The position numbers were made by a program, and so were the translations under genes. 64,000 nucleotides of DNA from Mesostigma viride (taxonomy: Eukaryota > Streptophyta > Mesostigmatophyceae > Mesostigmatales > Mesostigmataceae), in contig RPFO01000178.1 of the NCBI GenBank assembly GCA_009746045.1, positions 184,255 through 248,254 of the forward strand, given 5' to 3'. A model generated the notes under the pieces. It worked only from the letters and a program-made list of their open reading frames with translations, made no database searches and was not told where the DNA came from. Shown piece by piece: positions 7,571 through 32,912 of this stretch (position 1 is its first letter; every line of letters begins with the position of its first letter).

Positions 7571-7585
7571 GAGAGGGGGGAGGAG
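7571..7585 (+). other. Polypurine tract
   Basis: GAGAGGGGGGAGGAG lies immediately before the 3' LTR start TGTTGCG, the position expected for the plus-strand primer of an LTR retrotransposon. Confidence 0.8.
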
Positions 7586-8280: not shown

Positions 8281-8285
8281 CGTGT

Positions 8286-9351
8286 GAGCCTGGACAATCT
8301 TCTGCTGACCTCTTCCTGTTCTGCATAGCAGTCCAAGCAAGAGAGAGGGAGTGAATGGGGTGTTCAAACTGAGCTGGGACCACTAGGTCCACCAGCAACA
8401 TCTGGATGTAGTTCATCATGGCAGGTTTACCCAGCTTTCTAGGAAGGTCCTTGGGGCCAGGCCAGGTCAGGATGTGCCGCCCTGCATGGTTGGCCAAGCC
8501 GCTGGGGGCCGGCCAGACCAAGGGCGGTATCTACTACCTGACTGGTGCGAGCAAGATGTCCTACAAATGCTATCCTACGCTGCCTAATCTCGTCCGAAAT
8601 GCGAGGCATACCCTGATACAAAGACTCTACTAATGACCTACTATGCGTGGAAAACCCTACATTCAGGACCTGTCGGAGCATCCTGTAAACCGTGCCGTCT
8701 AGCTTGGCGGCCAGCGTGTCCGTGAGTGTCCATGCCTCGGCGCCACACATAAGCATGCACCGTGAGGACGAGTACCTTGAAGAGCATGCGCTTGCGGTCG
8801 GGTGCTCGCCCAGTAGGCCCTTCGAGCGCCAGTAGCTAGGTGTTAAGCAAACGAAGCCTAGCCCAGGCCTGGCCGATGCGGATGTCCACATTGTCGGCGG
8901 TGTCGGGGAGCATGCTCCCCAACAGCTTGAAGCGATCGCGGGTACGGGACCTCCGTCCCGTCTAGTGCTCAGCCGCGGCAGCGGCGGGCAACTGGTGGCC
9001 CCAATCACCATCGCCTCAGTTCTGACACTAATCTCCAACCCCACCGCCCGCGCCTCCAAGCCCAGACAGTCCAGCCAGGTCTGAATGTTCTCGGGGCGCT
9101 CGATGAGGGTGGTATCATATCCGCACAAATCAGGTCGGACAGGCGGTAGCCAGGGCTACCGCCGCCGTGTTCGTGCTCGTTAAGGATGTGACTCTAAGCC
9201 GGGATCGAACCCGAGCAGTAAAGCGCGCACGTGCCCGGCTCATGACGTGATCCACGACAATAATGAACAGATACGGGGACAGGACGCAACCTTGCCACAC
9301 CCGGCCGTGGTAAAGGGGGAATGGTGGGGTGGTGCCTTCCGCAGTCGGCAC
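8286..9351 (-). pseudogene. Decayed non-LTR (LINE) reverse transcriptase
   Basis: Minus-strand fragments in two frames read as the second half of a LINE reverse transcriptase. The upstream piece has VWQGCVLSPYLFIIVVDHVM, a recognisable RT palm segment. The downstream piece has YDTTLIERPENIQTWLDC (the region just after the catalytic Asp pair, itself lost at a frameshift) and then the CGAEAWTLTDTLAAKLDG and RISDEIRQRRIAFVGHLAR stretches common in invertebrate and algal endonuclease/RT elements. Frames shift near 9129 and again internally, so it is dead. The sequence stops at the LTR element's right target duplication, so that element probably inserted into this LINE, whose 3' tail would resume left of 1451. 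I cannot assign a clade from this. Confidence 0.8.
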
Positions 9352-9443
9352 TACTGACTGTGAGCCCTCATACAGTCGACGAATGGCAGGTCACAGATTA
9401 TGCGGCAGGTCACAGAATGCGCCCTATAACCCCTTCACCTGTC

Positions 9444-9532
9444 ACATTGTCGTCAGAGAGCAACAAACGTGAAAACGCTAGCTGCCCAAATCTGATGAGA
9501 TTCCGCGAAACACAGAAAGTAAGAAAGCCTAG
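9444..9532 (+). repeat. Direct repeat, copy 1
   Basis: Matches 9872-9958 with one substitution and a 3-bp indel (TGATGAGA versus TGAGA). Host-type repeat of unknown origin. Confidence 0.8.
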
Positions 9533-9871
9533 TAGCTACCAGCAAGGAATCGAACATAGGACCTTTGGCATGATTTCGCGGCTGTGTGAGTCTCCCGATC
9601 CGAAGGCATCTCACTTAACGTTTCGAAACAGCCCAACTGCGAAAACCTCTTTATGTATCGGAGAGGGGTGCCAATATGTCCGATATTGCTGAATCTATAG
9701 AAGATGACTCACCACTAGACCTAAGTGCGCAGGAGTACTACGCACGGACCTGCGCAATATTCTAGTATCGCCGAAGTAGGCAGGTTGACCACGGCTGGAA
9801 TCTCAGTGGTTGTAGTGACATACTAACCTAGAGCTGGACGTAGCCGAATCTAACTAATATCAACCGATCTT

Positions 9872-9958
9872 ACATTGTCGTCAGAAAGCAACAAACGTGA
9901 AAACGCTAGCTGCCCAAATCTGAGATTCCGCGAAACACAGAAAGTAAGAAAGCCTAGT
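9872..9958 (+). repeat. Direct repeat, copy 2, abutting the palindrome
   Basis: Second copy of the repeat. Identity with copy 1 runs through GAAAGCCTAGT and ends at 9958, the last base before the palindrome arm begins with CTACAAAAACC. Confidence 0.8.
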
Positions 9959-10192
9959 CTACAAAAACCTAAAGTGACCCCCTTTTGGAGGGCTGACAGA
10001 CATGCACAGTAACATGGCATTCCTCGTGGTAAAGCATGGAAATAAACACATGTAATGATATTTATTAATGAAACAATTCTTTATTCCAGATTATATTGCA
10101 TGAATGGACTCTGTCACGTGTATTGGTGCTGCCACCACCAAGAAAAAGCCAGCATGGCTGTGCTGGTGCTGCCACACTACCATCATAGCTGT

Positions 10193-11113
10193 CTAGTGTG
10201 CATCTCCCTCGTCATTATCCTCATGCTCCTTATCATCATCATCACCATCATTGTGCCCATCCTTGGCATCCACGTCCTTAGGATCATCGTCCTTGGGATC
10301 ATCGTCCAACGGGATTGCATTGTCGTCGTCGACACCCTCGATGGCTCGCTTCACAGAGGCCTGCCACGCCTCCTTCTCGGCACGGAGTGCTTCCAGCTCG
10401 GCCATGATCTCTTGCTGCTTCCTCTCGCTAGCCCTGAGCTTCATGCCGATGGCCATCGCAGCCCGCTGGGGATCCTCAAACATCTGGCCGTGGCCTGCGC
10501 TCTTGGGGTTCTCCCCGCCGAGCTTGCTTGGAATGGTTGTAGGGGTGCGCTCGCGCGAAACCTGCTCGGTCTTCGTGCGCTTGTAGGCAGGCTCGCTCCC
10601 CCCCTCCGCCTGCCCCGCCTTCTCCTGCATGACAGCCATCCATGCCGTTCTGATAGCAACGTGGTTCGTGCCAAACTTCTTAGCAAACTGGGCGGACTGC
10701 GTTCCAGTGAAGGTGTTGCAGAAATTGATGATCATCTCGTTGCATCCAGGCTCAAAATGTGAGATGGGCAGCCAGTCAAAACGCTGGAGCGATTTGCCCT
10801 GGCGGTTGGCCTTCTGCCTCTCCTCGTCTGTGTAAAACCACTCCACAAGGAGCTCAACAACATTGTCGACCATCTTTGCGTCTATTATTTTGGACACGTC
10901 AAAGTGGTCGTACGAGTCATTATTCGCATCTTCAGCAGGCGCCTTGCTGCCTGAAGCGCGTTTCTTGTCACGATTGTCCGCCCTCACACCCCTCTCTGCA
11001 ACGTTCATTTCCTTTTCTTTTGTTCTAACATCCTCGTCCAGGCGCTTGCCTACGAGAGTGAAAATCGTCTCGTAAGACGCCCTATTTATCAGCTGTGCAA
11101 GGTTGTCCTTCAT
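10193..11113 (-). CDS. Acidic coiled-coil protein, left copy (306 aa)
   Basis: I do not recognise the family. Residues 1-170 look globular, with a basic patch around 30-55 (NRDKKRASG) and Trp-rich segments. A charged linker follows, then a predicted coiled coil around 225-260 (SERKQQEIMAELEALRAEKE). The last 40 residues are almost all Asp/Glu/Lys in DDDPKD-type repeats. Such an acidic tail suits a DNA-mimic, chromatin or histone-binding role, but that is inference. Intact here. The right-arm copy is frameshifted by one base in a C7/C6 tract, so the protein may exist only through this reading or the right copy is misread. Confidence 0.75.
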   Translation of the reverse strand: MKDNLAQLINRASYETIFTLVGKRLDEDVRTKEKEMNVAERGVRADNRDKKRASGSKAPAEDANNDSYDHFDVSKIIDAKMVDNVVELLVEWFYTDEERQKANRQGKSLQRFDWLPISHFEPGCNEMIINFCNTFTGTQSAQFAKKFGTNHVAIRTAWMAVMQEKAGQAEGGSEPAYKRTKTEQVSRERTPTTIPSKLGGENPKSAGHGQMFEDPQRAAMAIGMKLRASERKQQEIMAELEALRAEKEAWQASVKRAIEGVDDDNAIPLDDDPKDDDPKDVDAKDGHNDGDDDDKEHEDNDEGDAH

Positions 11114-11753
11114 CTTTGCCTGTCGACGGCTATGGAGTTTAATTCATCCCACCCATTATTATTAAATTCCTTTGCATTGCGGCTAGGGGCCGAGCATGCA
11201 TTGTGCAAGGGCCAATTGGCCCAGTGCCTAGCGCCGCTCCGTGGGTACTTTGACAGTAATTAGCATTGGTCAAGTGCGCGTACTTTGTCAGTAATTAAAT
11301 TTGCACAAGTCCCGAGCACCGTGTCATACGCCCTTACTTCTGTCGTACGCAGTACCGGCGCGGCGTTAGGCGTGTTTCTGTGCAAAGTCCCGAATTTTCA
11401 CCAAGTCCTGGGCACTAAGGGGGCCGTGCTAGTAAGTGTAGCTCCTAAACGGCTAAGTCTTTTTGAATTCTGTCACTTGCACCCTGTTTTGTATGCTCAG
11501 TATATGCTACGTACCTATTGCATTTGTTAATTGGCCTATTTATAATGCATGAGATGTGAGGACTCTTTGTTTACGTAAACGCTTTTATTAGAAAATAAAA
11601 TACAGTAATCATTTCAACACTCCTTTTCTCAATGTAGGAGTGGAAGTACTTATTTGTACATCGCATGCGCCTTCCTCCGTTCATGGCTTGGCTTCAAAAG
11701 GCTGCACTCCCTGCAGCTGACATAGCCATTGGCCAGTTGGTTCTTCCACACGT
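11114..11753. other. Intergenic: upstream of the acidic-protein gene, 3' end of F-box-like gene
   Basis: AATAAA read on the minus strand near 11584-11589 suits the 3' end of the F-box-like gene. Also holds two copies of a CTTTGNCAGTAATTA word (11250-11300) and a CGGCTAAGT word (near 11450) repeated near 12677 and 23370. No TATA box at the usual 80-bp distance was found for the 11113 start. Confidence 0.45.
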
Positions 11754-12368
11754 CTAACTCCCAATTGCACAGTTCCTCCATCTTCTGCATCCGGGGGGGC
11801 GGTGGTGAGGAGCCACGCTTGTCTCGAGGGCCTTGCGCACCGCCTCCTTCATGCGATTGATGAGCTCGAGACCGTGCTCTTCTGCCGTGCGTTCCTTCTC
11901 GAGATCCGGCACGGACTTGATGTACTCGTGAGCGACAAGGTCAGCGTCGTGTCCGAAGACGATGACAGCCCAGAACATCTTGTCAAACACATTCTGGGCA
12001 AGGCACGCCAGATGCTTCCTGTAGCAGTGAGCCTCGGCGACCCACCTCTTCGCTTGACGGAGAAAGATATAGGGCTTCTTGCCAATCAGCAACCGCTTGC
12101 ACATCTTGAGATCGCATGAAGTCATGTGGCGCAGCTCGCCAGGGTTCCTTCGGCGTCTGCGGGAGCGCATCTGAATCTCCTTCTCAATGGCATTCAGCAG
12201 CTCAGTGGCTTCGATCGTCTTTTCCTCTTTCACCTTCTCAAACTGGACCTGCGTGGCCTTGTTGATTCCACACAGTTTGGGCCACGAGAGCTCCACGAGG
12301 CGGTGCACGATTTCTGCAGGCAGGCTGTCGAAGGTGGCAGCCATAGCTGGTTTCGCGGAGTCAGCCAT
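11754..12368 (-). CDS. F-box-like protein, left copy
   Basis: Start chosen at MADSAKPAM rather than the upstream in-frame Met, because it fits the other genes' distance from a promoter (a GGATATCC element lies about 85 bp upstream). Residues 12-35, FDSLPAEIVHRLVELSW, match the first half of an F-box (LP.EI...I.). F-box proteins bring targets to SCF ubiquitin ligases. The rest is charged and helical with several Cys. After a C7 run near the end, another frame stays open to 11650 and encodes NQLANGYVSCRECS, a Cys-pair tail. The true C-terminus is probably that one, with the run misread in both arms. F-box call is moderate; function is inferred. Confidence 0.65.
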   Translation of the reverse strand: MADSAKPAMAATFDSLPAEIVHRLVELSWPKLCGINKATQVQFEKVKEEKTIEATELLNAIEKEIQMRSRRRRRNPGELRHMTSCDLKMCKRLLIGKKPYIFLRQAKRWVAEAHCYRKHLACLAQNVFDKMFWAVIVFGHDADLVAHEYIKSVPDLEKERTAEEHGLELINRMKEAVRKALETSVAPHHRPPGCRRWRNCAIGS

Positions 12369-12851
12369 AGCTGTTTTCGTGGTAGTGGTGGATGGAGAGG
12401 AGGATAGCTGCGAGAGTTGTTGCGTCTCGCGACTTAATAGACGAAGGGATATCCACAGCTGCCACGGGATTGGTCCGCGTCCTGTGGATAAGCGCGGCGC
12501 GAGCGCGACGCGCGCGTCCTGTGGATAAGCGCGGCGCAAATACGGAACGGCGCGGCGCGAGTACGGACCGGTGCACGTCCACGGGATTCTGCCACGTGGC
12601 ACGTGCCATTCCCCGTGGTGACGGCGCCAGAAGTATAAATATAAAACCGCGCCAAATTCAAATTTTTGCCAAGTCTCAACGGCTAAGTATTATTAAATTT
12701 GGACACTTGGGACGTGTGCAATTGTTAATTTTACTTTGATTGCAAGCATGGAAAATAAGACATGATGTTCGTGTGAATTGTTTTCATTAAAAATATAATT
12801 ACTCTTTAATTGTACACAAGTCCACGGGACTAGAGAGATTCTCTGAACTAT
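12369..12851. other. Regulatory spacer between F-box-like and Cys-rich RING genes
   Basis: Contains CCACGGG words, a G-box-like CCACGTGG (12594-12601), three copies of a GCGCGGCGCGAG word, two GTGGATAAGCGCGGCGC repeats, and the 3' signal of the neighbouring gene at 12780-12793. A TATAAATATAAAA run sits at about 12633-12645. Confidence 0.5.
12780..12793 (-). terminator. Candidate transcript 3' signal
   Basis: Minus strand reads TTTTTAATGAAAAC about 60 bp after the stop of the Cys-rich RING gene. Nearly the same string follows the genes ending at 20378, 25260 and 28323. Confidence 0.45.
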
Positions 12852-14117
12852 TTACAGGGCACGCGGGGCGGCCAGTTGGTTCATGACAGCTGCATAGCAG
12901 GACTCTGCGGAGTCGTAGCGGAAAAACGGGAAGCACAGGTCGTGCTTGGAGTCCTTGCCCTCGCAGATGGGGCAGGAGACACTCTTGGTGCCAGCCTCCC
13001 GCAGAGTGTCGAGGACGCACTCGCTGCAGACGACGTCGTTGTCGATGCTGTGGCCGTTGGCGGTGAAGAGGTAGTGCGCCTTCTTGTTGCACACCTTGCA
13101 GGTCTTGGAGGGCACGTCCAACTGGTGGTTGCAGCCCATCTGCTTGCTGGCAGCCTTGACGCCGCAGAACTTGTTCTTCAGATGCTCGAACTCCTTGGTG
13201 CCGGGAGTGACGGTGCTGGTGAGGTTGGACTCGGACAGCGTGAAAGAGACGAAGCTGAGGTGGGAGACATAGTTGCGCTTCTCGCACTCCCACTTGATCC
13301 TGGAGATCTCCTTGGTGAAGTCGCTCTTGAAGTTCTCGATGTCGACCTTGGGCTTCTTGATGGCGTCGTTGAACAGCCCGCAAGACCTCAGGTAGTCGTT
13401 TGTGTCCTCCTGCTTCCTCTTGTAGCCACCGCGAAGAAAGGGCTGGTCGCGCTCCTCGACCTTGACGTTGACCTTGCCAGGGTCGGTGGGGCCGGTGAGA
13501 GCAAAGTTCGGCTCAGAGACGGTGTAGGTGCCTGGCGTGGGCCACTTGATGAACTCGGCGGTGTCCTCCATATCCGGGTAGATCTGGAGCAGCTCGGGGA
13601 ACCTCTTCTTCGTCCGCTCGTGCTCGAACGCGAACTGCTCGAATGCGGGGTCCCAGCAGCTGATGCAGTGCTCGGCCTTGCCGTTGCAGTCGATCTTGAG
13701 GAGATCCACACGAGTCGGCTTCTTGCACTTGGCGCAGTCCTTCGTGGGGATGCTCTTCAGCATGTTGTTCTGCTGAAGGTACTCGCACGAGTCGCAGAAA
13801 TGGCCGTCGCACGGGGAAAAGCTGTGATTGTTGCGCATCTTGTAATCCTCGTCAAACTCGCAGAAGTGCTTGAGAGACCTCATCTTGTCGCAGCCGACGC
13901 AGCGAATGCGCTTCTTGTTCATCATGATGTTGCTCGTCTCGTAGTGATCCATCATGTCGTTCAAAACGCTGCGAGAAGCCTCAGGAAGGTGGACTTCGCA
14001 TGCATGCTCGCCGGTGACTGGGTGGAAAAGAATGTTGAAGTGGCGAGTTTTCTTGACTTTGGGAGCACTGTGCGGCCCACGCTGGCGAGGAGCAGAGATG
14101 GCGGAGGAGGTAGCCAT
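12852..14117 (-). CDS. Cys-rich RING-like zinc protein, left copy (421 aa)
   Basis: Start at MATSSAISAP, 85 bp downstream of a minus-strand TATAAAT. Residues 73-154 hold paired cysteines (C73/C76, C103, C108/C111, C128/C131, C144, C151/C154) that could bind two or more zinc ions. The C-terminal 60 residues have a RING-like order: CKVC, then a His in NGHS, then CSEC, then CPIC. The middle is basic and unrelated to anything I know. A RING suggests ubiquitin E3 activity or protein bridging; inference only. Divergently arranged with the intron-bearing RING gene across an 830-bp shared promoter array. Identical copy on the right arm. Confidence 0.8.
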   Translation of the reverse strand: MATSSAISAPRQRGPHSAPKVKKTRHFNILFHPVTGEHACEVHLPEASRSVLNDMMDHYETSNIMMNKKRIRCVGCDKMRSLKHFCEFDEDYKMRNNHSFSPCDGHFCDSCEYLQQNNMLKSIPTKDCAKCKKPTRVDLLKIDCNGKAEHCISCWDPAFEQFAFEHERTKKRFPELLQIYPDMEDTAEFIKWPTPGTYTVSEPNFALTGPTDPGKVNVKVEERDQPFLRGGYKRKQEDTNDYLRSCGLFNDAIKKPKVDIENFKSDFTKEISRIKWECEKRNYVSHLSFVSFTLSESNLTSTVTPGTKEFEHLKNKFCGVKAASKQMGCNHQLDVPSKTCKVCNKKAHYLFTANGHSIDNDVVCSECVLDTLREAGTKSVSCPICEGKDSKHDLCFPFFRYDSAESCYAAVMNQLAAPRAL

Positions 14118-14195
14118 TGGAGCTGGTTGGTTTTGGTTGCTGAGAGAGCTGGGTGGATGCGAGTGGGATGCGAGGCGAGGTGGTGCAAGTCCTGC

Positions 14196-14202
14196 ATTTA
14201 TA
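14196..14202 (-). promoter_or_regulatory. TATA box of Cys-rich RING gene, left
   Basis: Minus strand GGGTATAAATG, 80-85 bp before the ATG at 14117, directly beside a CCCGTGG word. Confidence 0.7.
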
Positions 14203-14221
14203 CCCACGGGGCTGCAATTCC

Positions 14222-14760
14222 CGTGGTCTAGAAGAATTCAGCAGATCGACGGCTCGTGGCTCGCCACGAGGTTTGTAACGGGAAACGGTATGACGGTTAC
14301 GAGGAAAATTTTCCCGTGGCCATACATTTTGAGCGTTATTTTGCCACGGGATTTGTAACGTAAAAAATCTTTCCCCGTGGCAAAAATATCCGACAGTTAC
14401 TTTGCCGCGGGACCGGAATCGGATTTTTTTCTGTCCCCGTGGACGGATATTTTCGAGCGTTATTTTGCCACGGGATTTGTAACGTAAAAATCTTTCCCGT
14501 GGCAAAAATATCCGACAGTTACTTTGCCACGGGGCCCGAATCGGTTTTTTTTCTGTCCCCGTGGACGGATATTTTCGAGCGTTATTTTGCCACGGGATTT
14601 GTAACGTAAAAATTCTTTCCCCGTGGCAAAATATCCGACAGTTACTCTGCCACGGGGCTCAAAACCGAAAATCCTTAATCCCCGTGGACGGATATTTCTG
14701 ACCGTTACGCTGCCACGGGACTTGTAACGTAAAAAAACGCGTCCCGTGGATAAGGTTTCG
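14222..14760. repeat. Bidirectional promoter array, left
   Basis: About three to four copies of a ~122-bp unit. Within it CCACGGG or CCCGTGG alternates with GTAACG/GTTAC words and AATATCCG blocks. It fills the space between two divergent genes, so it probably serves both as an upstream activating region. It contains one of the two arm differences (T3 at 14493). Confidence 0.75.
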
Positions 14761-14866
14761 GCGCATAAACGACGAACGCGCTTCCACGTAGCCAGATTGC
14801 CCGTGCAAGACCACGTAGATAGCCTGGCAGCCACGGGACCGTCTCGTCAACCAAGGCCTGCGCAGG

Positions 14867-14873
14867 TATAAAG
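14867..14873 (+). promoter_or_regulatory. TATA box of intron-bearing RING gene, left
   Basis: CAGGTATAAAGACC, 80 bp before the ATG at 14947. Confidence 0.7.
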
Positions 14874-14946
14874 ACCAGACTTCCTCGTCTCCTCGCCACT
14901 CGCTCACCTCACATCAGCTCAGCACACCAAAACTCTCTCACTGGAT

Positions 14947-16131
14947 ATGGCTTCCCGCCCCAGATACGCAGCTAGCTACAACTTTGGCCGTGGTGTTACT
15001 GGAGCTAGTGGCAGTGGCAGTGGAAGTGGCAGGGGAAAGCGACGTGCTGCGAGGAACACGGCTACTGGAGAAGCAGGTTTGTGACGAGCCTTTGTTTTTT
15101 TGCACCCAAAAGCGCTTTTTCTTGTCGTTTCCGCCTTTTGGTACTCATTTCTTGTTATGTTTTCTTGCCCCCACACACCCGTGCATGCAGAACTGACCGC
15201 TGAACAACGGCAGCTTCACAGGGCTAACAAGCCTGTGCCCGTGCACGATAATCACGGGGACTTCGACACAAGAAACAACGTGTTTCCCTATCTGGAGAAC
15301 ACTTTCAAGGTGGCGAAGCTCGTCCTGGACTTGAGCAAGATCGAATGCGCCATTTGCGCGGAGGAGAGAGACAAGTATGTCACTCTCATGCTGGAGAACG
15401 AGCCCGCGCACGCATGCTCCATCATCATCTGCGACACCTGTGCCACTACCAAGCTTCACACGTTCAGAAACCAGTGCCCGCAGTGCCGCAAGCCGCTGAG
15501 CTCGTCTGGGCAGCTGTTCGTCCCCAACCCGCAGCTCAACAGCCTGGCGTCGAGGACGCAGTACAGGGCCTGCGAACACCCCGGCTGCTTTACGATCATC
15601 CCAAGCAACATGATGGCGGCGCACGAGGAGGAGTGCGAGTACAACGTCTACACCTGTGGCAACACCGTCTCGTTCCGCCTGCTGGACAACGAGACGCTTT
15701 CTTCCAAGATGTGCTGCGGCTATGAGGGCAAGAAACGCGCCGTCGAGGAGCACATGGAGACTTGCCCGGAGGCTGAGTCTGCGAAGAAGCTTAGCGCAAT
15801 GATGGGCGTGTTTGACAAGGTGGAGGCGCTCTCAGCTGCAATGGAGCGCGACAGCCCAGACGTCTTCAAGCGCATGGCTCAGTTGTTTGGGGTGACCACG
15901 GAGAAGGCCAGGCGCATCCTTGCCAGCCTGCCTGGAGCGAGTGCTGCCGGCCCTTCTTCCCAGCGTGCTCCTCGTCCAGGGGAAGCAGTGGACACAGCAA
16001 TCCCCGTCGACGCCCCCACTGACCCAATCAGTGATCTCGTGGACGCCATAGACGCTGACGTTGCTGCACAGGGCGTCGACGACGAGGCTGCAGACCCCAC
16101 CTGGACTCCGGCTGGCAACCAGGACGACTGA
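14947..16131 (+). CDS. RING/TRAF-like zinc protein with intron, left copy (356 aa spliced)
   Basis: Exon 1 is 14947-15076 and exon 2 is 15191-16131. Without splicing, exon 1 stops at a TGA inside the intron; splicing joins G to AA in frame. Residues 1-43 are a basic Gly/Ser/Arg tail. A RING follows at about 96-142: C96/C99, H117-x-C119, C124/C127, C139/C142, the third and fourth ligands being in H-x-C order. Next come more Cys/His pairs (YRACEHPGCF, HEEECEYNVYTC, then a later CCGYEGKKRAVEEHMETC) like TRAF-type zinc fingers, then an acidic, Pro/Asp-rich tail. Probable E3 ubiquitin ligase; substrate unknown. The splice-dependent N-terminus implies nuclear transcription. Confidence 0.82.
15077..15190 (+). 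other. Spliceosomal-type intron, left
   Basis: 114 bp, GTTTGT...TGCAG, with a pyrimidine-rich stretch before the acceptor and an in-frame TGA 8 bp in. Phase 1. Confidence 0.75.
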
Positions 16132-17097
16132 ACAGTTACAGCTGACAGCATTGGATGTCAAAAACCCCTCTAGTTTAGAGACAAGGGCCATAGTTAGAAA
16201 CCAGCCCATCCACGGGGTTTAGGTGACAGGCAGTAGAAGAAACACCCCACACACTGGGGACTTGGACAGGAAAGATGTGGATGTTTGTAATAAAGATGTG
16301 GATGTTTGCAAAACCAGTTTGAAAAAATATCTAAGCTGCACATTAGTATAAGTATGGTAAGTTTCCAGCAGGCCACGTGGCAGCCACAAAGCCCGATCCC
16401 CGTGGTAGCCGGCGCAGTACGGATCCCGTAGGAATCCACGAGATATTTCCGAGATATTTCCGAGATATTTTAGATATTTTCAGATATTTTGAAAATATCC
16501 CAGGGACCCCGTGGACTCCCAGGGGAATCGTAACCGAAAATCGGACTCGCGGCCGGCGATCGGAGGAGCCACCACGGGAAAATCCCGTTTTTTTTTCGGG
16601 TGTGTCCTCAGAACGTTCTGAGGACACACCCGAAAAAAAAACGGGATTTTCCCGTGGTGGCTCCTCCGATCGCCGGCCGCGAGTCCGATTTTCGGTTACG
16701 ATTCCCCTGGGAGTCCACGGGGTCCCTGGGATATTTTCAAAATATCTGAAAATATCTAAAATATCTCGGAAATATCTCGGAAATATCTCGTGGATTCCTA
16801 CGGGATCCGTACTGCGCCGGCTACCACGGGGATCGGGCTTTGTGGCTGCCACGTGGCCTGCTGGAAACTTACCATACTTATACTAATGTGCAGCTTAGAT
16901 ATTTTTTCAAACTGGTTTTGCAAACATCCACATCTTTATTACAAACATCCACATCTTTCCTGTCCAAGTCCCCAGTGTGTGGGGTGTTTCTTCTACTGCC
17001 TGTCACCTAAACCCCGTGGATGGGCTGGTTTCTAACTATGGCCCTTGTCTCTAAACTAGAGGGGTTTTTGACATCCAATGCTGTCAGCTGTAACTGT
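16132..17097. other. Non-coding palindrome core between the two RING genes
   Basis: Each half holds an AATAAAGATGTGGATGTTTG duplicate (AATAAA signals near 16288-16293 and its mirror), a CCACGTGG box, CCGTGGTAGCC words and AT-rich GAGATATTTCC repeats leading to the axis. Mirror-image 169-codon frames cross the axis but are symmetry artefacts. Confidence 0.7.
16440..16790. other. Palindrome centre, zero-nucleotide loop
   Basis: Symmetry axis lies between 16614 and 16615 within GAAC|GTTC. Flanks are GGGTGTGTCCTCA, then T9 (mirrored A9), then CGGGATTTTCCCGTGG, then AT-rich repeats of GAGATATTTCC. A perfect foldback with no spacer is what a covalently closed hairpin end, or a head-to-head concatemer junction, gives when read through both strands. 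Confidence 0.9.
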
Positions 17098-18282
17098 TCA
17101 GTCGTCCTGGTTGCCAGCCGGAGTCCAGGTGGGGTCTGCAGCCTCGTCGTCGACGCCCTGTGCAGCAACGTCAGCGTCTATGGCGTCCACGAGATCACTG
17201 ATTGGGTCAGTGGGGGCGTCGACGGGGATTGCTGTGTCCACTGCTTCCCCTGGACGAGGAGCACGCTGGGAAGAAGGGCCGGCAGCACTCGCTCCAGGCA
17301 GGCTGGCAAGGATGCGCCTGGCCTTCTCCGTGGTCACCCCAAACAACTGAGCCATGCGCTTGAAGACGTCTGGGCTGTCGCGCTCCATTGCAGCTGAGAG
17401 CGCCTCCACCTTGTCAAACACGCCCATCATTGCGCTAAGCTTCTTCGCAGACTCAGCCTCCGGGCAAGTCTCCATGTGCTCCTCGACGGCGCGTTTCTTG
17501 CCCTCATAGCCGCAGCACATCTTGGAAGAAAGCGTCTCGTTGTCCAGCAGGCGGAACGAGACGGTGTTGCCACAGGTGTAGACGTTGTACTCGCACTCCT
17601 CCTCGTGCGCCGCCATCATGTTGCTTGGGATGATCGTAAAGCAGCCGGGGTGTTCGCAGGCCCTGTACTGCGTCCTCGACGCCAGGCTGTTGAGCTGCGG
17701 GTTGGGGACGAACAGCTGCCCAGACGAGCTCAGCGGCTTGCGGCACTGCGGGCACTGGTTTCTGAACGTGTGAAGCTTGGTAGTGGCACAGGTGTCGCAG
17801 ATGATGATGGAGCATGCGTGCGCGGGCTCGTTCTCCAGCATGAGAGTGACATACTTGTCTCTCTCCTCCGCGCAAATGGCGCATTCGATCTTGCTCAAGT
17901 CCAGGACGAGCTTCGCCACCTTGAAAGTGTTCTCCAGATAGGGAAACACGTTGTTTCTTGTGTCGAAGTCCCCGTGATTATCGTGCACGGGCACAGGCTT
18001 GTTAGCCCTGTGAAGCTGCCGTTGTTCAGCGGTCAGTTCTGCATGCACGGGTGTGTGGGGGCAAGAAAACATAACAAGAAATGAGTACCAAAAGGCGGAA
18101 ACGACAAGAAAAAGCGCTTTTGGGTGCAAAAAAACAAAGGCTCGTCACAAACCTGCTTCTCCAGTAGCCGTGTTCCTCGCAGCACGTCGCTTTCCCCTGC
18201 CACTTCCACTGCCACTGCCACTAGCTCCAGTAACACCACGGCCAAAGTTGTAGCTAGCTGCGTATCTGGGGCGGGAAGCCAT
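17098..18282 (-). CDS. RING/TRAF-like zinc protein with intron, right copy
   Basis: Mirror of 14947-16131: exons 18153-18282 and 17098-18038 on the minus strand, with the same predicted protein. As this arm is contiguous with the rest of the viral terminus, it is probably the native copy. Having two convergent copies facing the axis may double the dose or may reflect an inverted dimer. Confidence 0.8.
18039..18152 (-). other. Spliceosomal-type intron, right
   Basis: Mirror of 15077-15190, with the same GT/AG ends and in-frame stop. Confidence 0.75.
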
Positions 18283-18355
18283 ATCCAGTGAGAGAGTTTT
18301 GGTGTGCTGAGCTGATGTGAGGTGAGCGAGTGGCGAGGAGACGAGGAAGTCTGGT

Positions 18356-18362
18356 CTTTATA
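18356..18362 (-). promoter_or_regulatory. TATA box of intron-bearing RING gene, right
   Basis: Minus-strand GGTATAAAG, 80 bp before the ATG at 18282. Confidence 0.7.
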
Positions 18363-18468
18363 CCTGCGCAGGCCTTGGTTGACGAGACGGTCCCGTGGCT
18401 GCCAGGCTATCTACGTGGTCTTGCACGGGCAATCTGGCTACGTGGAAGCGCGTTCGTCGTTTATGCGC

Positions 18469-19008
18469 CGAAACCTTATCCACGGGACGCGTTTTTTTAC
18501 GTTACAAGTCCCGTGGCAGCGTAACGGTCAGAAATATCCGTCCACGGGGATTAAGGATTTTCGGTTTTGAGCCCCGTGGCAGAGTAACTGTCGGATATTT
18601 TGCCACGGGGAAAGAATTTTTACGTTACAAATCCCGTGGCAAAATAACGCTCGAAAATATCCGTCCACGGGGACAGAAAAAAAACCGATTCGGGCCCCGT
18701 GGCAAAGTAACTGTCGGATATTTTTGCCACGGGAAAAGATTTTTACGTTACAAATCCCGTGGCAAAATAACGCTCGAAAATATCCGTCCACGGGGACAGA
18801 AAAAAATCCGATTCCGGTCCCGCGGCAAAGTAACTGTCGGATATTTTTGCCACGGGGAAAGATTTTTTACGTTACAAATCCCGTGGCAAAATAACGCTCA
18901 AAATGTATGGCCACGGGAAAATTTTCCTCGTAACCGTCATACCGTTTCCCGTTACAAACCTCGTGGCGAGCCACGAGCCGTCGATCTGCTGAATTCTTCT
19001 AGACCACG
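18469..19008. repeat. Bidirectional promoter array, right
   Basis: Mirror of 14222-14760: CCACGGG/CCCGTGG with GTAACG and CGGATATTTT words in ~122-bp units. One base longer than the left copy (A4 at 18734-18737). Confidence 0.75.
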
Positions 19009-19027
19009 GGAATTGCAGCCCCGTGGG

Positions 19028-19034
19028 TATAAAT
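19028..19034 (+). promoter_or_regulatory. TATA box of Cys-rich RING gene, right
   Basis: GTGGGTATAAATGC, 85 bp before the ATG at 19113, right after CCCCGTGG. Confidence 0.7.
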
Positions 19035-19112
19035 GCAGGACTTGCACCACCTCGCCTCGCATCCCACTCGCATCCACCCAGCTCTCTCAGCAACCAAAAC
19101 CAACCAGCTCCA

Positions 19113-20378
19113 ATGGCTACCTCCTCCGCCATCTCTGCTCCTCGCCAGCGTGGGCCGCACAGTGCTCCCAAAGTCAAGAAAACTCGCCACTTCAACATTC
19201 TTTTCCACCCAGTCACCGGCGAGCATGCATGCGAAGTCCACCTTCCTGAGGCTTCTCGCAGCGTTTTGAACGACATGATGGATCACTACGAGACGAGCAA
19301 CATCATGATGAACAAGAAGCGCATTCGCTGCGTCGGCTGCGACAAGATGAGGTCTCTCAAGCACTTCTGCGAGTTTGACGAGGATTACAAGATGCGCAAC
19401 AATCACAGCTTTTCCCCGTGCGACGGCCATTTCTGCGACTCGTGCGAGTACCTTCAGCAGAACAACATGCTGAAGAGCATCCCCACGAAGGACTGCGCCA
19501 AGTGCAAGAAGCCGACTCGTGTGGATCTCCTCAAGATCGACTGCAACGGCAAGGCCGAGCACTGCATCAGCTGCTGGGACCCCGCATTCGAGCAGTTCGC
19601 GTTCGAGCACGAGCGGACGAAGAAGAGGTTCCCCGAGCTGCTCCAGATCTACCCGGATATGGAGGACACCGCCGAGTTCATCAAGTGGCCCACGCCAGGC
19701 ACCTACACCGTCTCTGAGCCGAACTTTGCTCTCACCGGCCCCACCGACCCTGGCAAGGTCAACGTCAAGGTCGAGGAGCGCGACCAGCCCTTTCTTCGCG
19801 GTGGCTACAAGAGGAAGCAGGAGGACACAAACGACTACCTGAGGTCTTGCGGGCTGTTCAACGACGCCATCAAGAAGCCCAAGGTCGACATCGAGAACTT
19901 CAAGAGCGACTTCACCAAGGAGATCTCCAGGATCAAGTGGGAGTGCGAGAAGCGCAACTATGTCTCCCACCTCAGCTTCGTCTCTTTCACGCTGTCCGAG
20001 TCCAACCTCACCAGCACCGTCACTCCCGGCACCAAGGAGTTCGAGCATCTGAAGAACAAGTTCTGCGGCGTCAAGGCTGCCAGCAAGCAGATGGGCTGCA
20101 ACCACCAGTTGGACGTGCCCTCCAAGACCTGCAAGGTGTGCAACAAGAAGGCGCACTACCTCTTCACCGCCAACGGCCACAGCATCGACAACGACGTCGT
20201 CTGCAGCGAGTGCGTCCTCGACACTCTGCGGGAGGCTGGCACCAAGAGTGTCTCCTGCCCCATCTGCGAGGGCAAGGACTCCAAGCACGACCTGTGCTTC
20301 CCGTTTTTCCGCTACGACTCCGCAGAGTCCTGCTATGCAGCTGTCATGAACCAACTGGCCGCCCCGCGTGCCCTGTAA
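19113..20378 (+). CDS. Cys-rich RING-like zinc protein, right copy (421 aa)
   Basis: Same protein as 12852-14117, with zinc-ligand pairs at residues 73-154 and a RING-like C-terminus. The upstream array, TATA box and downstream TTTTTAATGAAAA signal are all present, so this copy has a complete transcription unit. Confidence 0.8.
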   Translation: MATSSAISAPRQRGPHSAPKVKKTRHFNILFHPVTGEHACEVHLPEASRSVLNDMMDHYETSNIMMNKKRIRCVGCDKMRSLKHFCEFDEDYKMRNNHSFSPCDGHFCDSCEYLQQNNMLKSIPTKDCAKCKKPTRVDLLKIDCNGKAEHCISCWDPAFEQFAFEHERTKKRFPELLQIYPDMEDTAEFIKWPTPGTYTVSEPNFALTGPTDPGKVNVKVEERDQPFLRGGYKRKQEDTNDYLRSCGLFNDAIKKPKVDIENFKSDFTKEISRIKWECEKRNYVSHLSFVSFTLSESNLTSTVTPGTKEFEHLKNKFCGVKAASKQMGCNHQLDVPSKTCKVCNKKAHYLFTANGHSIDNDVVCSECVLDTLREAGTKSVSCPICEGKDSKHDLCFPFFRYDSAESCYAAVMNQLAAPRAL

Positions 20379-20861
20379 ATAGTTCAGAGAATCTCTCTAG
20401 TCCCGTGGACTTGTGTACAATTAAAGAGTAATTATATTTTTAATGAAAACAATTCACACGAACATCATGTCTTATTTTCCATGCTTGCAATCAAAGTAAA
20501 ATTAACAATTGCACACGTCCCAAGTGTCCAAATTTAATAATACTTAGCCGTTGAGACTTGGCAAAAATTTGAATTTGGCGCGGTTTTATATTTATACTTC
20601 TGGCGCCGTCACCACGGGGAATGGCACGTGCCACGTGGCAGAATCCCGTGGACGTGCACCGGTCCGTACTCGCGCCGCGCCGTTCCGTATTTGCGCCGCG
20701 CTTATCCACAGGACGCGCGCGTCGCGCTCGCGCCGCGCTTATCCACAGGACGCGGACCAATCCCGTGGCAGCTGTGGATATCCCTTCGTCTATTAAGTCG
20801 CGAGACGCAACAACTCTCGCAGCTATCCTCCTCTCCATCCACCACTACCACGAAAACAGCT
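20379..20861. other. Regulatory spacer, right-arm mirror
   Basis: Mirror of 12369-12851: 3' signal, G-box-like CCACGTGG, GCGCCGCGC words, CCGTGG words and a GGATATCC element about 85 bp before the F-box-like start. Confidence 0.5.
20437..20450 (+). terminator. Candidate transcript 3' signal
   Basis: TTTTTAATGAAAAC about 60 bp after the stop at 20378; mirror of 12780-12793. Confidence 0.45.
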
Positions 20862-21476
20862 ATGGCTGACTCCGCGAAACCAGCTATGGCTGCCACCTTC
20901 GACAGCCTGCCTGCAGAAATCGTGCACCGCCTCGTGGAGCTCTCGTGGCCCAAACTGTGTGGAATCAACAAGGCCACGCAGGTCCAGTTTGAGAAGGTGA
21001 AAGAGGAAAAGACGATCGAAGCCACTGAGCTGCTGAATGCCATTGAGAAGGAGATTCAGATGCGCTCCCGCAGACGCCGAAGGAACCCTGGCGAGCTGCG
21101 CCACATGACTTCATGCGATCTCAAGATGTGCAAGCGGTTGCTGATTGGCAAGAAGCCCTATATCTTTCTCCGTCAAGCGAAGAGGTGGGTCGCCGAGGCT
21201 CACTGCTACAGGAAGCATCTGGCGTGCCTTGCCCAGAATGTGTTTGACAAGATGTTCTGGGCTGTCATCGTCTTCGGACACGACGCTGACCTTGTCGCTC
21301 ACGAGTACATCAAGTCCGTGCCGGATCTCGAGAAGGAACGCACGGCAGAAGAGCACGGTCTCGAGCTCATCAATCGCATGAAGGAGGCGGTGCGCAAGGC
21401 CCTCGAGACAAGCGTGGCTCCTCACCACCGCCCCCCCGGATGCAGAAGATGGAGGAACTGTGCAATTGGGAGTTAG
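20862..21476 (+). CDS. F-box-like protein, right copy
   Basis: Same protein as 11754-12368. The stop at 21476 follows a shift at the C7 run 21431-21437. In another frame the gene would run to TAA at 21580 and end with a CRECS-type Cys pair and basic tail. Both arms show the same seven C residues, so either the short ending is real or the miscall is systematic. Confidence 0.65.
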   Translation: MADSAKPAMAATFDSLPAEIVHRLVELSWPKLCGINKATQVQFEKVKEEKTIEATELLNAIEKEIQMRSRRRRRNPGELRHMTSCDLKMCKRLLIGKKPYIFLRQAKRWVAEAHCYRKHLACLAQNVFDKMFWAVIVFGHDADLVAHEYIKSVPDLEKERTAEEHGLELINRMKEAVRKALETSVAPHHRPPGCRRWRNCAIGS

Positions 21477-22116
21477 ACGTGTGGAAGAACCAACTGGCCA
21501 ATGGCTATGTCAGCTGCAGGGAGTGCAGCCTTTTGAAGCCAAGCCATGAACGGAGGAAGGCGCATGCGATGTACAAATAAGTACTTCCACTCCTACATTG
21601 AGAAAAGGAGTGTTGAAATGATTACTGTATTTTATTTTCTAATAAAAGCGTTTACGTAAACAAAGAGTCCTCACATCTCATGCATTATAAATAGGCCAAT
21701 TAACAAATGCAATAGGTACGTAGCATATACTGAGCATACAAAACAGGGTGCAAGTGACAGAATTCAAAAAGACTTAGCCGTTTAGGAGCTACACTTACTA
21801 GCACGGCCCCCTTAGTGCCCAGGACTTGGTGAAAATTCGGGACTTTGCACAGAAACACGCCTAACGCCGCGCCGGTACTGCGTACGACAGAAGTAAGGGC
21901 GTATGACACGGTGCTCGGGACTTGTGCAAATTTAATTACTGACAAAGTACGCGCACTTGACCAATGCTAATTACTGTCAAAGTACCCACGGAGCGGCGCT
22001 AGGCACTGGGCCAATTGGCCCTTGCACAATGCATGCTCGGCCCCTAGCCGCAATGCAAAGGAATTTAATAATAATGGGTGGGATGAATTAAACTCCATAG
22101 CCGTCGACAGGCAAAG
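21477..22116. other. Intergenic, right-arm mirror
   Basis: Mirror of 11114-11753. Contains AATAAA at 21641-21646 after the F-box-like gene and the repeated TTACTGNCAAAG words. No gene of its own apart from the possible F-box-like tail to 21580. Confidence 0.45.
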
Positions 22117-23036
22117 ATGAAGGACAACCTTGCACAGCTGATAAATAGGGCGTCTTACGAGACGATTTTCACTCTCGTAGGCAAGCGCCTGGACGAGGAT
22201 GTTAGAACAAAAGAAAAGGAAATGAACGTTGCAGAGAGGGGTGTGAGGGCGGACAATCGTGACAAGAAACGCGCTTCAGGCAGCAAGGCGCCTGCTGAAG
22301 ATGCGAATAATGACTCGTACGACCACTTTGACGTGTCCAAAATAATAGACGCAAAGATGGTCGACAATGTTGTTGAGCTCCTTGTGGAGTGGTTTTACAC
22401 AGACGAGGAGAGGCAGAAGGCCAACCGCCAGGGCAAATCGCTCCAGCGTTTTGACTGGCTGCCCATCTCACATTTTGAGCCTGGATGCAACGAGATGATC
22501 ATCAATTTCTGCAACACCTTCACTGGAACGCAGTCCGCCCAGTTTGCTAAGAAGTTTGGCACGAACCACGTTGCTATCAGAACGGCATGGATGGCTGTCA
22601 TGCAGGAGAAGGCGGGGCAGGCGGAGGGGGGAGCGAGCCTGCCTACAAGCGCACGAAGACCGAGCAGGTTTCGCGCGAGCGCACCCCTACAACCATTCCA
22701 AGCAAGCTCGGCGGGGAGAACCCCAAGAGCGCAGGCCACGGCCAGATGTTTGAGGATCCCCAGCGGGCTGCGATGGCCATCGGCATGAAGCTCAGGGCTA
22801 GCGAGAGGAAGCAGCAAGAGATCATGGCCGAGCTGGAAGCACTCCGTGCCGAGAAGGAGGCGTGGCAGGCCTCTGTGAAGCGAGCCATCGAGGGTGTCGA
22901 CGACGACAATGCAATCCCGTTGGACGATGATCCCAAGGACGATGATCCTAAGGACGTGGATGCCAAGGATGGGCACAATGATGGTGATGATGATGATAAG
23001 GAGCATGAGGATAATGACGAGGGAGATGCACACTAG
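22117..23036 (+). pseudogene. Acidic coiled-coil protein, right copy, frameshifted
   Basis: Same gene as 10193-11113 but with G6 at 22626-22631 where the left arm has seven. The first frame leaves the family sequence after about residue 170 and ends at 22788; the coiled coil and acidic tail continue in another frame to 23036. The single homopolymer difference between otherwise matching arms makes a base-calling error likely. Confidence 0.75.
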
Positions 23037-23406
23037 ACAGCTATGATGGTAGTGTGGCAGCACCAGCACAGCCATGCTGGCTTTTTCTTGGTGGTGGCAG
23101 CACCAATACACGTGACAGAGTCCATTCATGCAATATAATCTGGAATAAAGAATTGTTTCATTAATAAATATCATTACATGTGTTTATTTCCATGCTTTAC
23201 CACGAGGAATGCCATGTTACTGTGCATGTCTGTCAGCCCTCCAAAAGGGGGTCACTTTAGGTTTTTGTAGTAAGGCACCTACCGCGGGATTCCCGTGGCA
23301 AAACATCTTCGGGCCCTTACTACGCTCCGCGAAAGTGACCCGTTTTCCCGGGTTGCGCGACTTGTGAAAATCGGCTAAGTCCCGTGGTCTCCCAGCGGGT
23401 GGGGGG
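23037..23406. other. Palindrome right edge and spacer
   Basis: AATAAA at 23143-23148 follows the acidic-protein gene. A hairpin-like pair of CCAGCACAGCC / GGCTGTGCTGG halves lies at about 23060-23080. Palindrome symmetry ends at 23270; CCCGTGG words continue at 23293 and 23383, showing that the DNA style does not change here. Confidence 0.6.
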
Positions 23407-23610
23407 TTAGCGCCTCCAAGGCCCCCCGAATAGGACCATGGCCGGAATAAATACGGGCGTGAACAATGCAAGCTTAATACGTTTAGATAAGGGGTAGTTT
23501 TCGTACGATTCGCGCGTGTGCCCTGAATACAGGTGGTCGTATGCTAAGGCTATGTTCGCGAGTATGAGATAGTACAGCAGTAGTGCTTTGATGATGGACA
23601 CAATGATCAT
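23407..23610 (-). CDS. Small membrane protein A of tandem pair (67 aa)
   Basis: One hydrophobic N-terminal helix (IIVSIIKALLLYYLILANIA) then a polar middle with GHTRESYENYP and a second hydrophobic stretch near the C-terminus. Paralogue of the next gene. Function unknown; two membrane segments expected. Confidence 0.65.
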   Translation of the reverse strand: MIIVSIIKALLLYYLILANIALAYDHLYSGHTRESYENYPLSKRIKLALFTPVFIPAMVLFGGPWRR

Positions 23611-23653
23611 TGTCTTTTCATTATGGACATAATTTTGCCAATCGGGGTTGCGC

Positions 23654-23842
23654 CTAAAAGCCGAGTAACCCGAACGGGACTGCGGGGGAGAACACCAGCA
23701 CTAGGAGAATACGCTTATTCCAAGGGAATTTGTCAAACGATTTGCGCGTGTGTTCCATGTACAAGTGTTCCCATGCTAAGGAGAGGTTGACGCAAATGAG
23801 ATAGTACAGCAATAATGCTTTGATGATGGACACAATGATCAT
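23654..23842 (-). CDS. Small membrane protein B of tandem pair (62 aa)
   Basis: Starts at the same MIIVSIIKALLLYYLI as protein A and keeps the EHTRKSFDKFP middle and hydrophobic end, so the two are a tandem duplication. Upstream Met-less extension ignored. The DNA of the two starts (TTTGATGATGGACACAATGATCAT on the plus strand, shortened here) is also nearly the same, so duplication is recent. Confidence 0.65.
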   Translation of the reverse strand: MIIVSIIKALLLYYLICVNLSLAWEHLYMEHTRKSFDKFPWNKRILLVLVFSPAVPFGLLGF

Positions 23843-23897
23843 GGTCTTTTTATTATAAAAATAAATAATATCACTCAATCGTGTTTCCTATACTGCA

Positions 23898-24875
23898 TCA
23901 CTTGCGCCCGAAGAGCGTAGGAATTCCCTCAGTCACGAGAAGGTCAAGCACGCCGCGGAGGAACTGCTTCTCCTCGGCTCTGTTCATGGGCTGCAAGTTG
24001 ACTCCAAAGGGGACAAACTCGTCCCTCTGGTCTTTGGGTTTTTCCAGGAGCTTCTTCAAGCCGTTGTCTTGGCTGTACCCCTCCAAGAGGATCTTCGCCT
24101 TGAAGGGCGCGTTCCTTGCGCAATTGTGGCAGCGGACGCGGATCTGGTCCGAGAACTGGTCCGGGACAATATAGGCAGACATGACGTCGTGCAAGAACCT
24201 CACCGTGCAGGTGGAGCACTCCTTCGGGGGCCAACAGCTCGCAACGTTCGAGTTCTGCAGGTAGAGAGAAGTCCCTTGCTCACCGGCCTGCGTGTCCATC
24301 TTCCAGTCCCTCACGAAACTCTGCACGAGCTCGTTCTCCTTTTCTGTTCTGACTTCGTTGTCGGCCACTTTCAACTTGCGAATTGCGATCACGACCTTCT
24401 TTTGGTAGCAGGGCTCGCACAGAGTGGTCTTGTTGCGCATGTGCTGCGTTGCAGGCGTATCGTGGACGAAGGCAGCTCCAGTGACGTACGACATGCACTC
24501 CACGCACGAATAGGAGCGGCGAGGTGGCGTATCTTGCTCAGGGACTCGGTAGCGCATGAGCGAATCCGAGTACTTGTGCACGAAGTCGGCGATTTGAGGG
24601 ATGGCCTTGACGCAGCCATCGCACTTGCACTCGACGGAGCCTTGGTCGTTTTTGAAGAGGTAGAAAAAGTCCGTCGGCATGTGGAAACAGGTGTCGCAGA
24701 TACGCGGCCTCACCAAGTCGAAAGCGGAGTCCTTGACGGGGTTCGACTCGTCGCTGTGCTCCACGAGGACAGGCTTCTTGCAGGCGTGCTTCTTTCGCTT
24801 GGATATGGCTGCCAAGGAGAGAGGGAACAGCGGGGTGTTGTTGAGGCGAACAGAGGACCTGGTAGCGGGAGCCAT
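23898..24875 (-). CDS. Cys-rich zinc-binding protein (325 aa)
   Basis: Not recognised by family. Start at MAPATRSSVR, 83 bp after a GGTACAAAG promoter element. Seven Cys pairs are spaced along it: RICDTC, ECKCDGC, YSCVEC, LCEPC, ECSTC and RCHNC, with histidines between, suggesting three or more zinc sites like the Cys-rich RING gene in the palindrome but without a clear RING order. Basic N-terminus (KRKKHACKK). Likely an intracellular regulator; inference only. Confidence 0.72.
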   Translation of the reverse strand: MAPATRSSVRLNNTPLFPLSLAAISKRKKHACKKPVLVEHSDESNPVKDSAFDLVRPRICDTCFHMPTDFFYLFKNDQGSVECKCDGCVKAIPQIADFVHKYSDSLMRYRVPEQDTPPRRSYSCVECMSYVTGAAFVHDTPATQHMRNKTTLCEPCYQKKVVIAIRKLKVADNEVRTEKENELVQSFVRDWKMDTQAGEQGTSLYLQNSNVASCWPPKECSTCTVRFLHDVMSAYIVPDQFSDQIRVRCHNCARNAPFKAKILLEGYSQDNGLKKLLEKPKDQRDEFVPFGVNLQPMNRAEEKQFLRGVLDLLVTEGIPTLFGRK

Positions 24876-24951
24876 GGATGGATGAGAGTGCAAGAGGGAT
24901 TGCGCGAGAGAAAACGAGAGCGAGATGGGAAACAAGTCGCAAACTTGGAGT

Positions 24952-24958
24952 CTTTGTA
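24952..24958 (-). promoter_or_regulatory. Variant TATA element (TACAAAG)
   Basis: Minus-strand GAGGTACAAAGACT, 83 bp before ATG 24875, the spacing shared with the canonical boxes. Confidence 0.5.
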
Positions 24959-25225
24959 CCTCTCGGGAGCGGCTGTCCACGGGGACACAGAGTTTCGGTT
25001 ACTTATCCACTGGATTTCGGTTACGAGCGGCGCGGCGCTGTACGGCCTTAACGACGGGAATACGGTTACAAACGACGCGACGCCGTACGGACTTATCCAA
25101 AGGGTTTCAGTTACGACTTACGGATAGTGTACGGACCCGTCCTGAAATACTACTTGAAGTAATTTGCCACTTGGCATGCAATTGTGATTGACTCATTGTT
25201 GGTATTCAAGTTTATGTGAAAATGG

Positions 25226-25243
25226 TTTTTCATTAATAAAAAT
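25226..25243 (-). terminator. Candidate transcript 3' signal
   Basis: Minus strand ATTTTTATTAATGAAAAA about 20 bp after the stop at 25260; related to the TTTTTAATGAAAA string after other genes in this region. Confidence 0.45.
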
Positions 25244-25259
25244 AATACACAAGGATCAT

Positions 25260-26141: not shown

Positions 26142-26219
26142 AGCTGAGAGAGAGAGAGAGAGAGTTAGAGATCAGGTGATAGTGAGAGCGAGGTGAGAGC
26201 CCCGTGGTCGTGCACCGGG

Positions 26220-26226
26220 TTTTATA
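26220..26226 (-). promoter_or_regulatory. TATA box of the 26141 gene
   Basis: Minus-strand GGTATAAAACC about 80-85 bp before the ATG, beside CCACGGGGC. Confidence 0.7.
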
Positions 26227-26261
26227 CCTTCCAGGCCGCCGCGGCGGTTACAAGGTGCTGA

Positions 26262-32908: not shown

Positions 32909-32912
32909 TAAC

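Follow-up and report, generated by a model that had tools for sequence, protein, structure and literature searches.

Closest described systems and the Mesostigma locus

The closest published precedent for the locus treated here, a 13.3-kb palindrome inside a putative provirus of the streptophyte green alga Mesostigma viride, is the Ectocarpus phaeovirus provirus EVEc with its internal telomere site (PMC13236599). According to the Ectocarpus study, the virus would be excised as a circle and linearised at an internal site of the telRL type, with a tyrosine recombinase as the proposed enzyme. As in EVEc, a large algal virus appears to be integrated after opening at an attachment site other than the genome end, and its linear ends meet within the provirus at a palindrome, which in Ectocarpus is proposed to be a hairpin telomere of the telRL type (PMC13236599). 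EVEc differs in its inverted repeat with a 6-bp palindromic core, its tyrosine recombinase and its CC-CC junction (PMC13236599), whereas the Mesostigma provirus has arms of 6.7 kb (belonging to a repeat that would reach 14.9 kb in the free genome), tips that face each other, a 49-bp spacer that is lost, a 2-bp target duplication and a streptophyte host.

The Chlamydomonas punuivirus is likewise a transposon-like provirus of a green alga with a target duplication (PMC13236599, PMC12993054) and large terminal inverted repeats (PMC13236599); it differs in its integrase, described as retroviral-like, and joined ends inside the provirus are not mentioned in the available portions of either paper. 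Poxviruses, asfarviruses and Kaumoebavirus have linear genomes that carry inverted repeats at their covalently closed ends, as may hold for the virus treated here; poxviruses form concatemer intermediates, and the Kaumoebavirus hairpin is incompletely paired (PMC7909422). The Mesostigma joint is, in contrast, perfectly paired and fixed in a chromosome, and its closure in the free form is putative. Among transposons, circles of the IS3/IS30 type carry facing inverted tips whose short intervening spacer disappears when the circle inserts, and they produce a short target duplication. The Mesostigma element differs from these in being virus-like and up to ~250 kb in size, in having a spacer of fixed length and sequence, and in showing no transposase among the open reading frames (ORFs) scanned.

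The stretch analysed (the window) comprises 64,000 nucleotides of contig RPFO01000178.1 of assembly GCA_009746045.1, referred to as C2067:184255-248254, and the genome searched contains 439.9 Mb in 2243 contigs. Based on the evidence described below, the palindrome is very probably the joined end pair of a large DNA virus kept inside an integrated provirus.

Structure of the palindrome

Self-comparison of the window by BLASTN paired positions 9959-23270 with their own reverse complement over 13,314 columns (99.97% identity, 0 mismatches), and alignment of the arms alone gave 6657 columns with 0 mismatches and 2 gap openings, both single-base length differences. The left arm (A, 6656 bp, 9959..16614, + strand) runs from an outer end, T, at 9959 to an inner end, X, at 16614, and the right arm (16615..23270, - strand) from X at 16615 to T at 23270. 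The arms meet at 16614/16615 without a spacer, and the perfect run around this axis extends uninterrupted for 2122 bp per side. The edges are exact, as the flanks diverge from 9958/9959 and 23270/23271 outward. The match is far beyond chance and the palindrome is real; the original prediction of a loop-free 13.3-kb palindrome with arms matching base for base except at two sites, and ending at 9959 and 23270, was therefore correct in its geometry.

The arm is a repeat of the Mesostigma genome. A 501-bp arm probe yielded 40 scored matches (65 candidates), and 11 contigs, not all with a flank of their own, carry inverted pairs of matches 8.5-8.9 kb apart, a distribution that fits poorly with the earlier statement that such a structure is unstable as ordinary DNA. 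Twenty stretches around arm matches were examined for X and T. X was present in 18, continuing into a mirror arm in 14 and not in the other 4; T was present in 17, meeting other flank sequence in 13 and, in 4, the viral side as at window position 23271. Over the loci examined in this way, T (CTACAAAAACC..AAAGTGACC) borders precisely on 20 different flanks, the window included and contigs with a shared flank merged: C2067, C1478/C1818, C2102, C113, C1535 (two), C1657/C257, C2210/C730/C1668, C1457/C874, C1414, C1413, C1073, C2100, C1956, C1912, C1106, C1580, C1807, C1391 and C2096. In seven further arm copies the distinctness of the T flanks was judged by eye. In the window the T tip, CTACAAAAACCTAAAGTGACC, occupies 9959..9979 (+), with its mirror copy at 23250-23270. 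Among the loci with the full order host-T-X.X-T-49-Vtip (49 being a spacer and Vtip a second tip, both described below), the sequence across the axis was read in three: C2067, C1478 and C2102.

The right arm is truncated in C2210/C730 and C1413; at the break in C2210 (L009 8160-8200) a sequence resembling the interior of Vtip starts, GTGACCCCGTTTTCC, perhaps a third type of tip.

A second tip, a lost spacer and the far end of the provirus

To the right of the palindrome lies a 49-bp spacer (23271..23319, +), which starts with TAAGG, ends with CCTTA and is missing at the integrated ends, followed by the second integration tip, Vtip (CTACGCTCCGCGAAAGTGACC, 23320..23340, +), inverted relative to T. 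The two tips share the motif CTAC-8nt-AAAGTGACC in opposite orientation. Beyond the window, ten T-spacer-Vtip junctions, allelic ones included, were detected in the examined loci, and the spacer is identical in all ten; it is absent at 3/3 Vtips (C2100, C1073, C1956) where Vtip directly meets other flank sequence. Exact copies of Vtip number 57 genome-wide, against 0 for a control pattern. Flanks were read in 20 of the 57, namely eight for which the flank had been predicted (see below), two of contig C80, nine of host type lacking an examined T partner, and C1912, the only one of the 20 to carry the spacer.

Fifty kb past the window, at C2067:297891, the provirus ends with an inverted Vtip followed by host flank (GTAGCTACC). 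The last 8.2 kb of the provirus repeat window 23320-31537 in inverted orientation (0 mismatches, 1 gap), so that 23320..31537 (+) is the inner part of a viral terminal inverted repeat whose inverted partner closes the provirus. The complete unit, from host GT followed by T to Vtip followed by GT and host, spans C2067:194213-297891 (103,679 bp). Two earlier interpretations of the arm, as a free mobile element bounded by T and X and as a plain terminal repeat, were dropped once the second tip and the far end had been found.

Within the repeat, window 28479-30317 contains dense nested direct and inverted repeats with units of 28, 53 and 178 bp. Additional arrangements were noted on two contigs. 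In C1657:784551-793260 (L017) a truncated arm of 3.2 kb with T-49-Vtip follows viral-looking sequence, in the same direction as the first T-49-Vtip and 98 kb past it. In C1413:1568753-1586000 (L022, L023, L043) the left host flank is repeated (~95%) before a second T with an arm of 95.6% similarity, after the truncated right arm; this second T may reflect a tandem duplication, an older copy or joined haplotypes.

A two-base target duplication

The host flank (1..9958) ends with CCTAGT, and its last two bases (GT, 9957-9958) are the left copy of a 2-bp target duplication. A tandem host copy at 9444-9592 reads CCTAGTAGCTACC and represents the uninterrupted site; when the flanks are joined, removal of exactly 2 bp gives the best match to this copy (score 273, vs 262-268 for removal of 0, 1, 3 or 4). 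The same dinucleotide stands at both ends in C2067 (GT), C2100 (AA), C1073 (TG) and C1956 (TA). For C113, C1535, C1657, C1457, C1391, C1106, C1580 and C1413 the dinucleotide was predicted from the T flank and then found at the Vtip flank in 8/8. With T and Vtip paired by contig, orientation and nearness, an exact 2-bp duplication is present in 12/12 elements, two of them lying in microsatellites (C1073, C113). Element sizes from T to Vtip range from 12.4 to 249.8 kb, the proviruses of C113 and C1535 being longer than that of the window; in C1413 there are two T sites, each with TA in front, and the element measures 65.0 or 49.3 kb accordingly. The outer edge at 9958/9959 is the edge of the integration and not of the viral terminal repeat.

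Inverted terminal tips with a fixed-length duplication, found in all paired elements, are the pattern of DDE-type transposons. A common CC or GC dinucleotide, the signature of tyrosine-recombinase integration in phaeovirus-like proviruses, is absent at these junctions, which read GT, AA, TG, TA, AT, CA and GA (no search for the enzyme was made). The dinucleotide before T is pyrimidine-purine in 11/20 flanks. This evidence would suggest a transposase-like enzyme.

X as a probable genome end

In five elements (C2100, C1073, C1956, C1912 and C1391) X is followed by sequence other than a mirror arm. Expressed as window positions, the partner lies at ~31224 in C2100, at 32923 in C1073, at 29256 in C1956 (93% identity) and near 63.7 kb in C1391, and in C1912 it falls outside the window sequence and is followed by a lectin-domain ORF. 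That X is joined to other viral sequence in five elements indicates that it behaves as a physical end. The bases retained past the axis are 5 (C2100), 4 (C1073), 1 (C1956), 4 (C1912) and 3 (C1391), as would be expected of leftovers from an opened hairpin or from a staggered cut near the axis; judged from these joints, a covalently closed hairpin at the axis is plausible. Since the joints of C2100, C1073, C1956 and C1391 lie inside the unit bounded by the duplication, they would have formed before integration. As in a provirus with a telomere site, the presumed junction of linear ends is located inside the provirus, away from the host junctions.

The axis in the window (16610..16619, core AGAAC/GTTCT) can consequently be read as joined viral genome ends. 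It had been proposed that the palindrome marks a terminus or a head-to-head junction. This holds insofar as the axis behaves like the end of a large viral DNA genome, and the palindrome like a gene-bearing end-to-end junction; the sequenced molecule itself, by contrast, has no free terminus there, as the axis lies inside a provirus with host DNA on both sides and a GT duplication.

A model for joining and integration

In the model favoured here, the free genome would be linear, with the order X-A-T-49-Vtip-(8.2 kb)-unique-(8.2 kb)-Vtip-49-T-A-X, the X sites being its physical ends and the inverted terminal repeats measuring ~14.9 kb (6656 + 49 + 8218). The ends would be joined X to X, either within one molecule to give a circle, which is favoured, or between two to give a head-to-head concatemer. 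In the joined form each repeat would contain a T-49-Vtip site, located 6.7 kb from the genome end, where the two tips face each other with 49 bp between them. A transposase-like enzyme would recognise T and Vtip, cut both at one of these sites and discard the 49 bp, and the opened molecule would be inserted into the host chromosome with a 2-bp staggered cut. Cutting at T-49-Vtip after X-X joining would yield a full provirus with T at its start, X.X 6.7 kb further in and Vtip at its end, and the left arm would stop at 9958/9959 because the integration cut was made there. Truncated genomes with one natural end (X) and one break would close on themselves and insert by the same reaction. The complete scheme, in which the ends must join before the paired subterminal tips, 49 bp apart and 6.7 kb from each end, can be cut, the spacer is lost, the telomere joint is stored as a 13.3-kb palindrome and truncated genomes give rise to mini-proviruses of 12-16 kb, is put forward with moderate confidence.

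Several observations weigh against this interpretation. The axis is known from the assembly, and the PacBio subread N50 of 11.2 kb (PMC6947507) is shorter than the 13.3-kb palindrome; in C113, C1535 and C1657 the presence of the axis is deduced from arm spacing. Among the seven further arm copies X was found at one only (C1391), while of the other six C2096 has mirror-arm sequence, four stop short of the expected X and one runs into a stretch of N. The C1391 joint contains ~8-11 filler bases, some of the bases kept at C2100 may belong to the partner as well, and the arms at most loci are too similar to act as markers. The first Vtip lies 22 kb (C1414) and 18.6 kb (C2096) after T, compared with 13.4 kb in the window, and C1457 lacks an exact Vtip at the position expected from the window. 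The inward-facing Vtips C80:97826 and C80:177788 (L073, L074), 80 kb apart, have the flanks AC and GT and hence no duplication pair. To these are added the second, truncated arm-T-49-Vtip inside the longer element of C1657 and the second T of C1413 with a flank ~95% like the first. Finally, no transposase, integrase or telomere resolvase was detected in the ORFs scanned with Pfam, which cover the smaller part of the interior.

Alternative explanations

The same provirus could possibly have formed with its ends joined between two genomes, as a poxvirus-like head-to-head concatemer integrated from T of one unit to Vtip of the next. In sequence, such a concatemer would be indistinguishable from a circle with a single opening, and the two same-direction T-49-Vtip junctions 98 kb apart within one T-to-Vtip span of C1657 are in line with it. 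The small elements of C2100, C1073 and C1956, on the other hand, require a T and a Vtip to be brought together across 49 bp, and X to be linked to a break within that unit, an arrangement that a circle gives directly. In addition, both arms of C1478 share the A' module (described below) and a tandem array shorter by roughly one unit, which serve as lineage markers and indicate that joining at this locus took place within one genome or its replication product. A concatemer is retained as a tentative explanation.

That foldback or missed-adapter PacBio reads made a single arm palindromic in the library or the assembly is improbable. The genome of M. viride NIES-296, most likely the strain analysed here, was obtained with PacBio RSII, Illumina and optical maps (PMC6947507), and both the long-read assembly with its subread N50 of 11.2 kb and the restriction of arm differences to single-base lengths, as in one sequence read twice, speak for an artefact. 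Random foldbacks, though, would turn at random points, while the X.X copies that were read (14 of the 18 stretches with X) all turn at one and the same base, this base is also the end in the joints of X to virus, and both outer edges fit an insertion with a 2-bp duplication. Equally doubtful is a separate 13.3-kb transposon, running from T to T, that landed 49 bp from the tip of the virus and travels along with it. The palindrome has exact, Vtip-like T ends on both sides, and T alone meets host at many sites; nonetheless, no complete host-flanked T-to-T element occurs among the examined loci (the second T is unread in C1457, C1414, C874 and C2096 and truncated away in C2210/C730 and C1413), C2100, C1073 and C1956 possess a single arm and employ one T together with one Vtip, and X acts as an end, unlike the centre of a transposon. 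An inverted duplication in the algal chromosome after integration has very little to recommend it: inverted duplications joined near their centre do occur in eukaryotes, yet the same axis base is found at unrelated host sites, and the target duplication flanks the whole unit with both arms included.

Genes of the arms, the flank and the viral interior

Each arm contains four long ORFs, in agreement with the four complete genes expected earlier, except that the outermost ORF of the right arm is split. In the left arm these are gene 1 (10193..11113, -, 306 aa), which matches no Pfam family and is replaced by another module in the A' arms; gene 2 (11754..12368, -, 204 aa), with an N-terminus that by eye is F-box-like and a longer ORF at 11754-12602 without a Pfam hit; gene 3 (12852..14117, -, 421 aa), cysteine-rich by eye and with no family found; and gene 4 (15100..16131, +, up to 343 aa), with a RING/Sina-type zinc finger for which both matches fall below the Pfam cut-offs. 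The mirror copies are located at 17098-18129 (-), 19113-20378 (+), 20862-21476 (+) and 22117-23036 (+), the last being split in two ORFs. A scan of IMG/VR with the 451-aa arm ORF gave no relative, a search with an arm protein gave no homologue at E<=0.001 among 1302 candidates, and AlphaFold models of two arm proteins, built without alignments, were uninformative (mean predicted local distance difference test scores of 35 and 49).

The arm type A' (L014, L016, L018-L021, L025, compared with window 10102-11279) carries a different module of ~1.37 kb where arm type A has its outermost gene; T and the remaining arm are kept, and the replacing module exists in at least two versions. The tandem array, with a unit of ~123 bp, is present in each arm (window 14326-14735 and 18494-18904). 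The left host flank is repeat-rich and has no ORF longer than 229 aa; its ORF at 8439-9128 lacks a Pfam hit and by eye looks like a retroelement remnant.

Right of the palindrome, the viral interior (31590..64000) contains virus-type genes identified with Pfam, including a PhyH oxygenase (31590-32537), KilA-N (33971-35074), helicase ORFs of the DEAD/ResIII type (52723-53976 and 51992-52756) and a ribonucleotide reductase ORF (59614-60888) beside an ORF without a Pfam hit (58856-59695). The helicase (51992-53976) and seemingly the ribonucleotide reductase (58856-60888) are split into overlapping ORFs, by decay or by homopolymer errors of long reads, and the latter has a weak match to the profile of the B12-dependent insertion domain. 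A perfect direct repeat of 465 bp is present at 43972-44436 and 45507-45971. Further virus-type domains were detected at C1478 (PCNA) and C113 (SET). KilA-N, DEAD/ResIII helicase, ribonucleotide reductase, PCNA and SET are none of them exclusive to Nucleocytoviricota, and the element may also be a mirusvirus.

IMG/VR likewise yielded no relative when scanned with the helicase ORF, whether as a single sequence or as an alignment. Nineteen database relatives of ORF 52723-53976 were found at E<=0.001, 16 of them Mesvir1 gene models, and 14 of the 16 rows of the PCNA search are Mesostigma gene models; these 16 helicase and 14 PCNA clusters in the host gene set, some of them fragments, suggest that many related proviruses are probably present. 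Among the papers listed for Mesostigma and viruses in an open-access library, none describes such an element in its title or abstract, and a search of that library found no paper that has both Mesostigma viride and Nucleocytoviricota; the available portion of PMC10120064 makes no mention of Mesostigma.

Significance

The locus offers a sequence-level map of a large green-algal virus moving between a free and an integrated form, and a single genome provides dozens of natural tip sites together with truncated derivatives. It supports the idea, proposed in 2026 for brown algae, that viral telomeres are joined in the provirus, here for a host that is only distantly related and with integration marks of another kind. 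As very long perfect palindromes are assembled at several chromosomal sites of one alga, their stability is directly testable in this organism.

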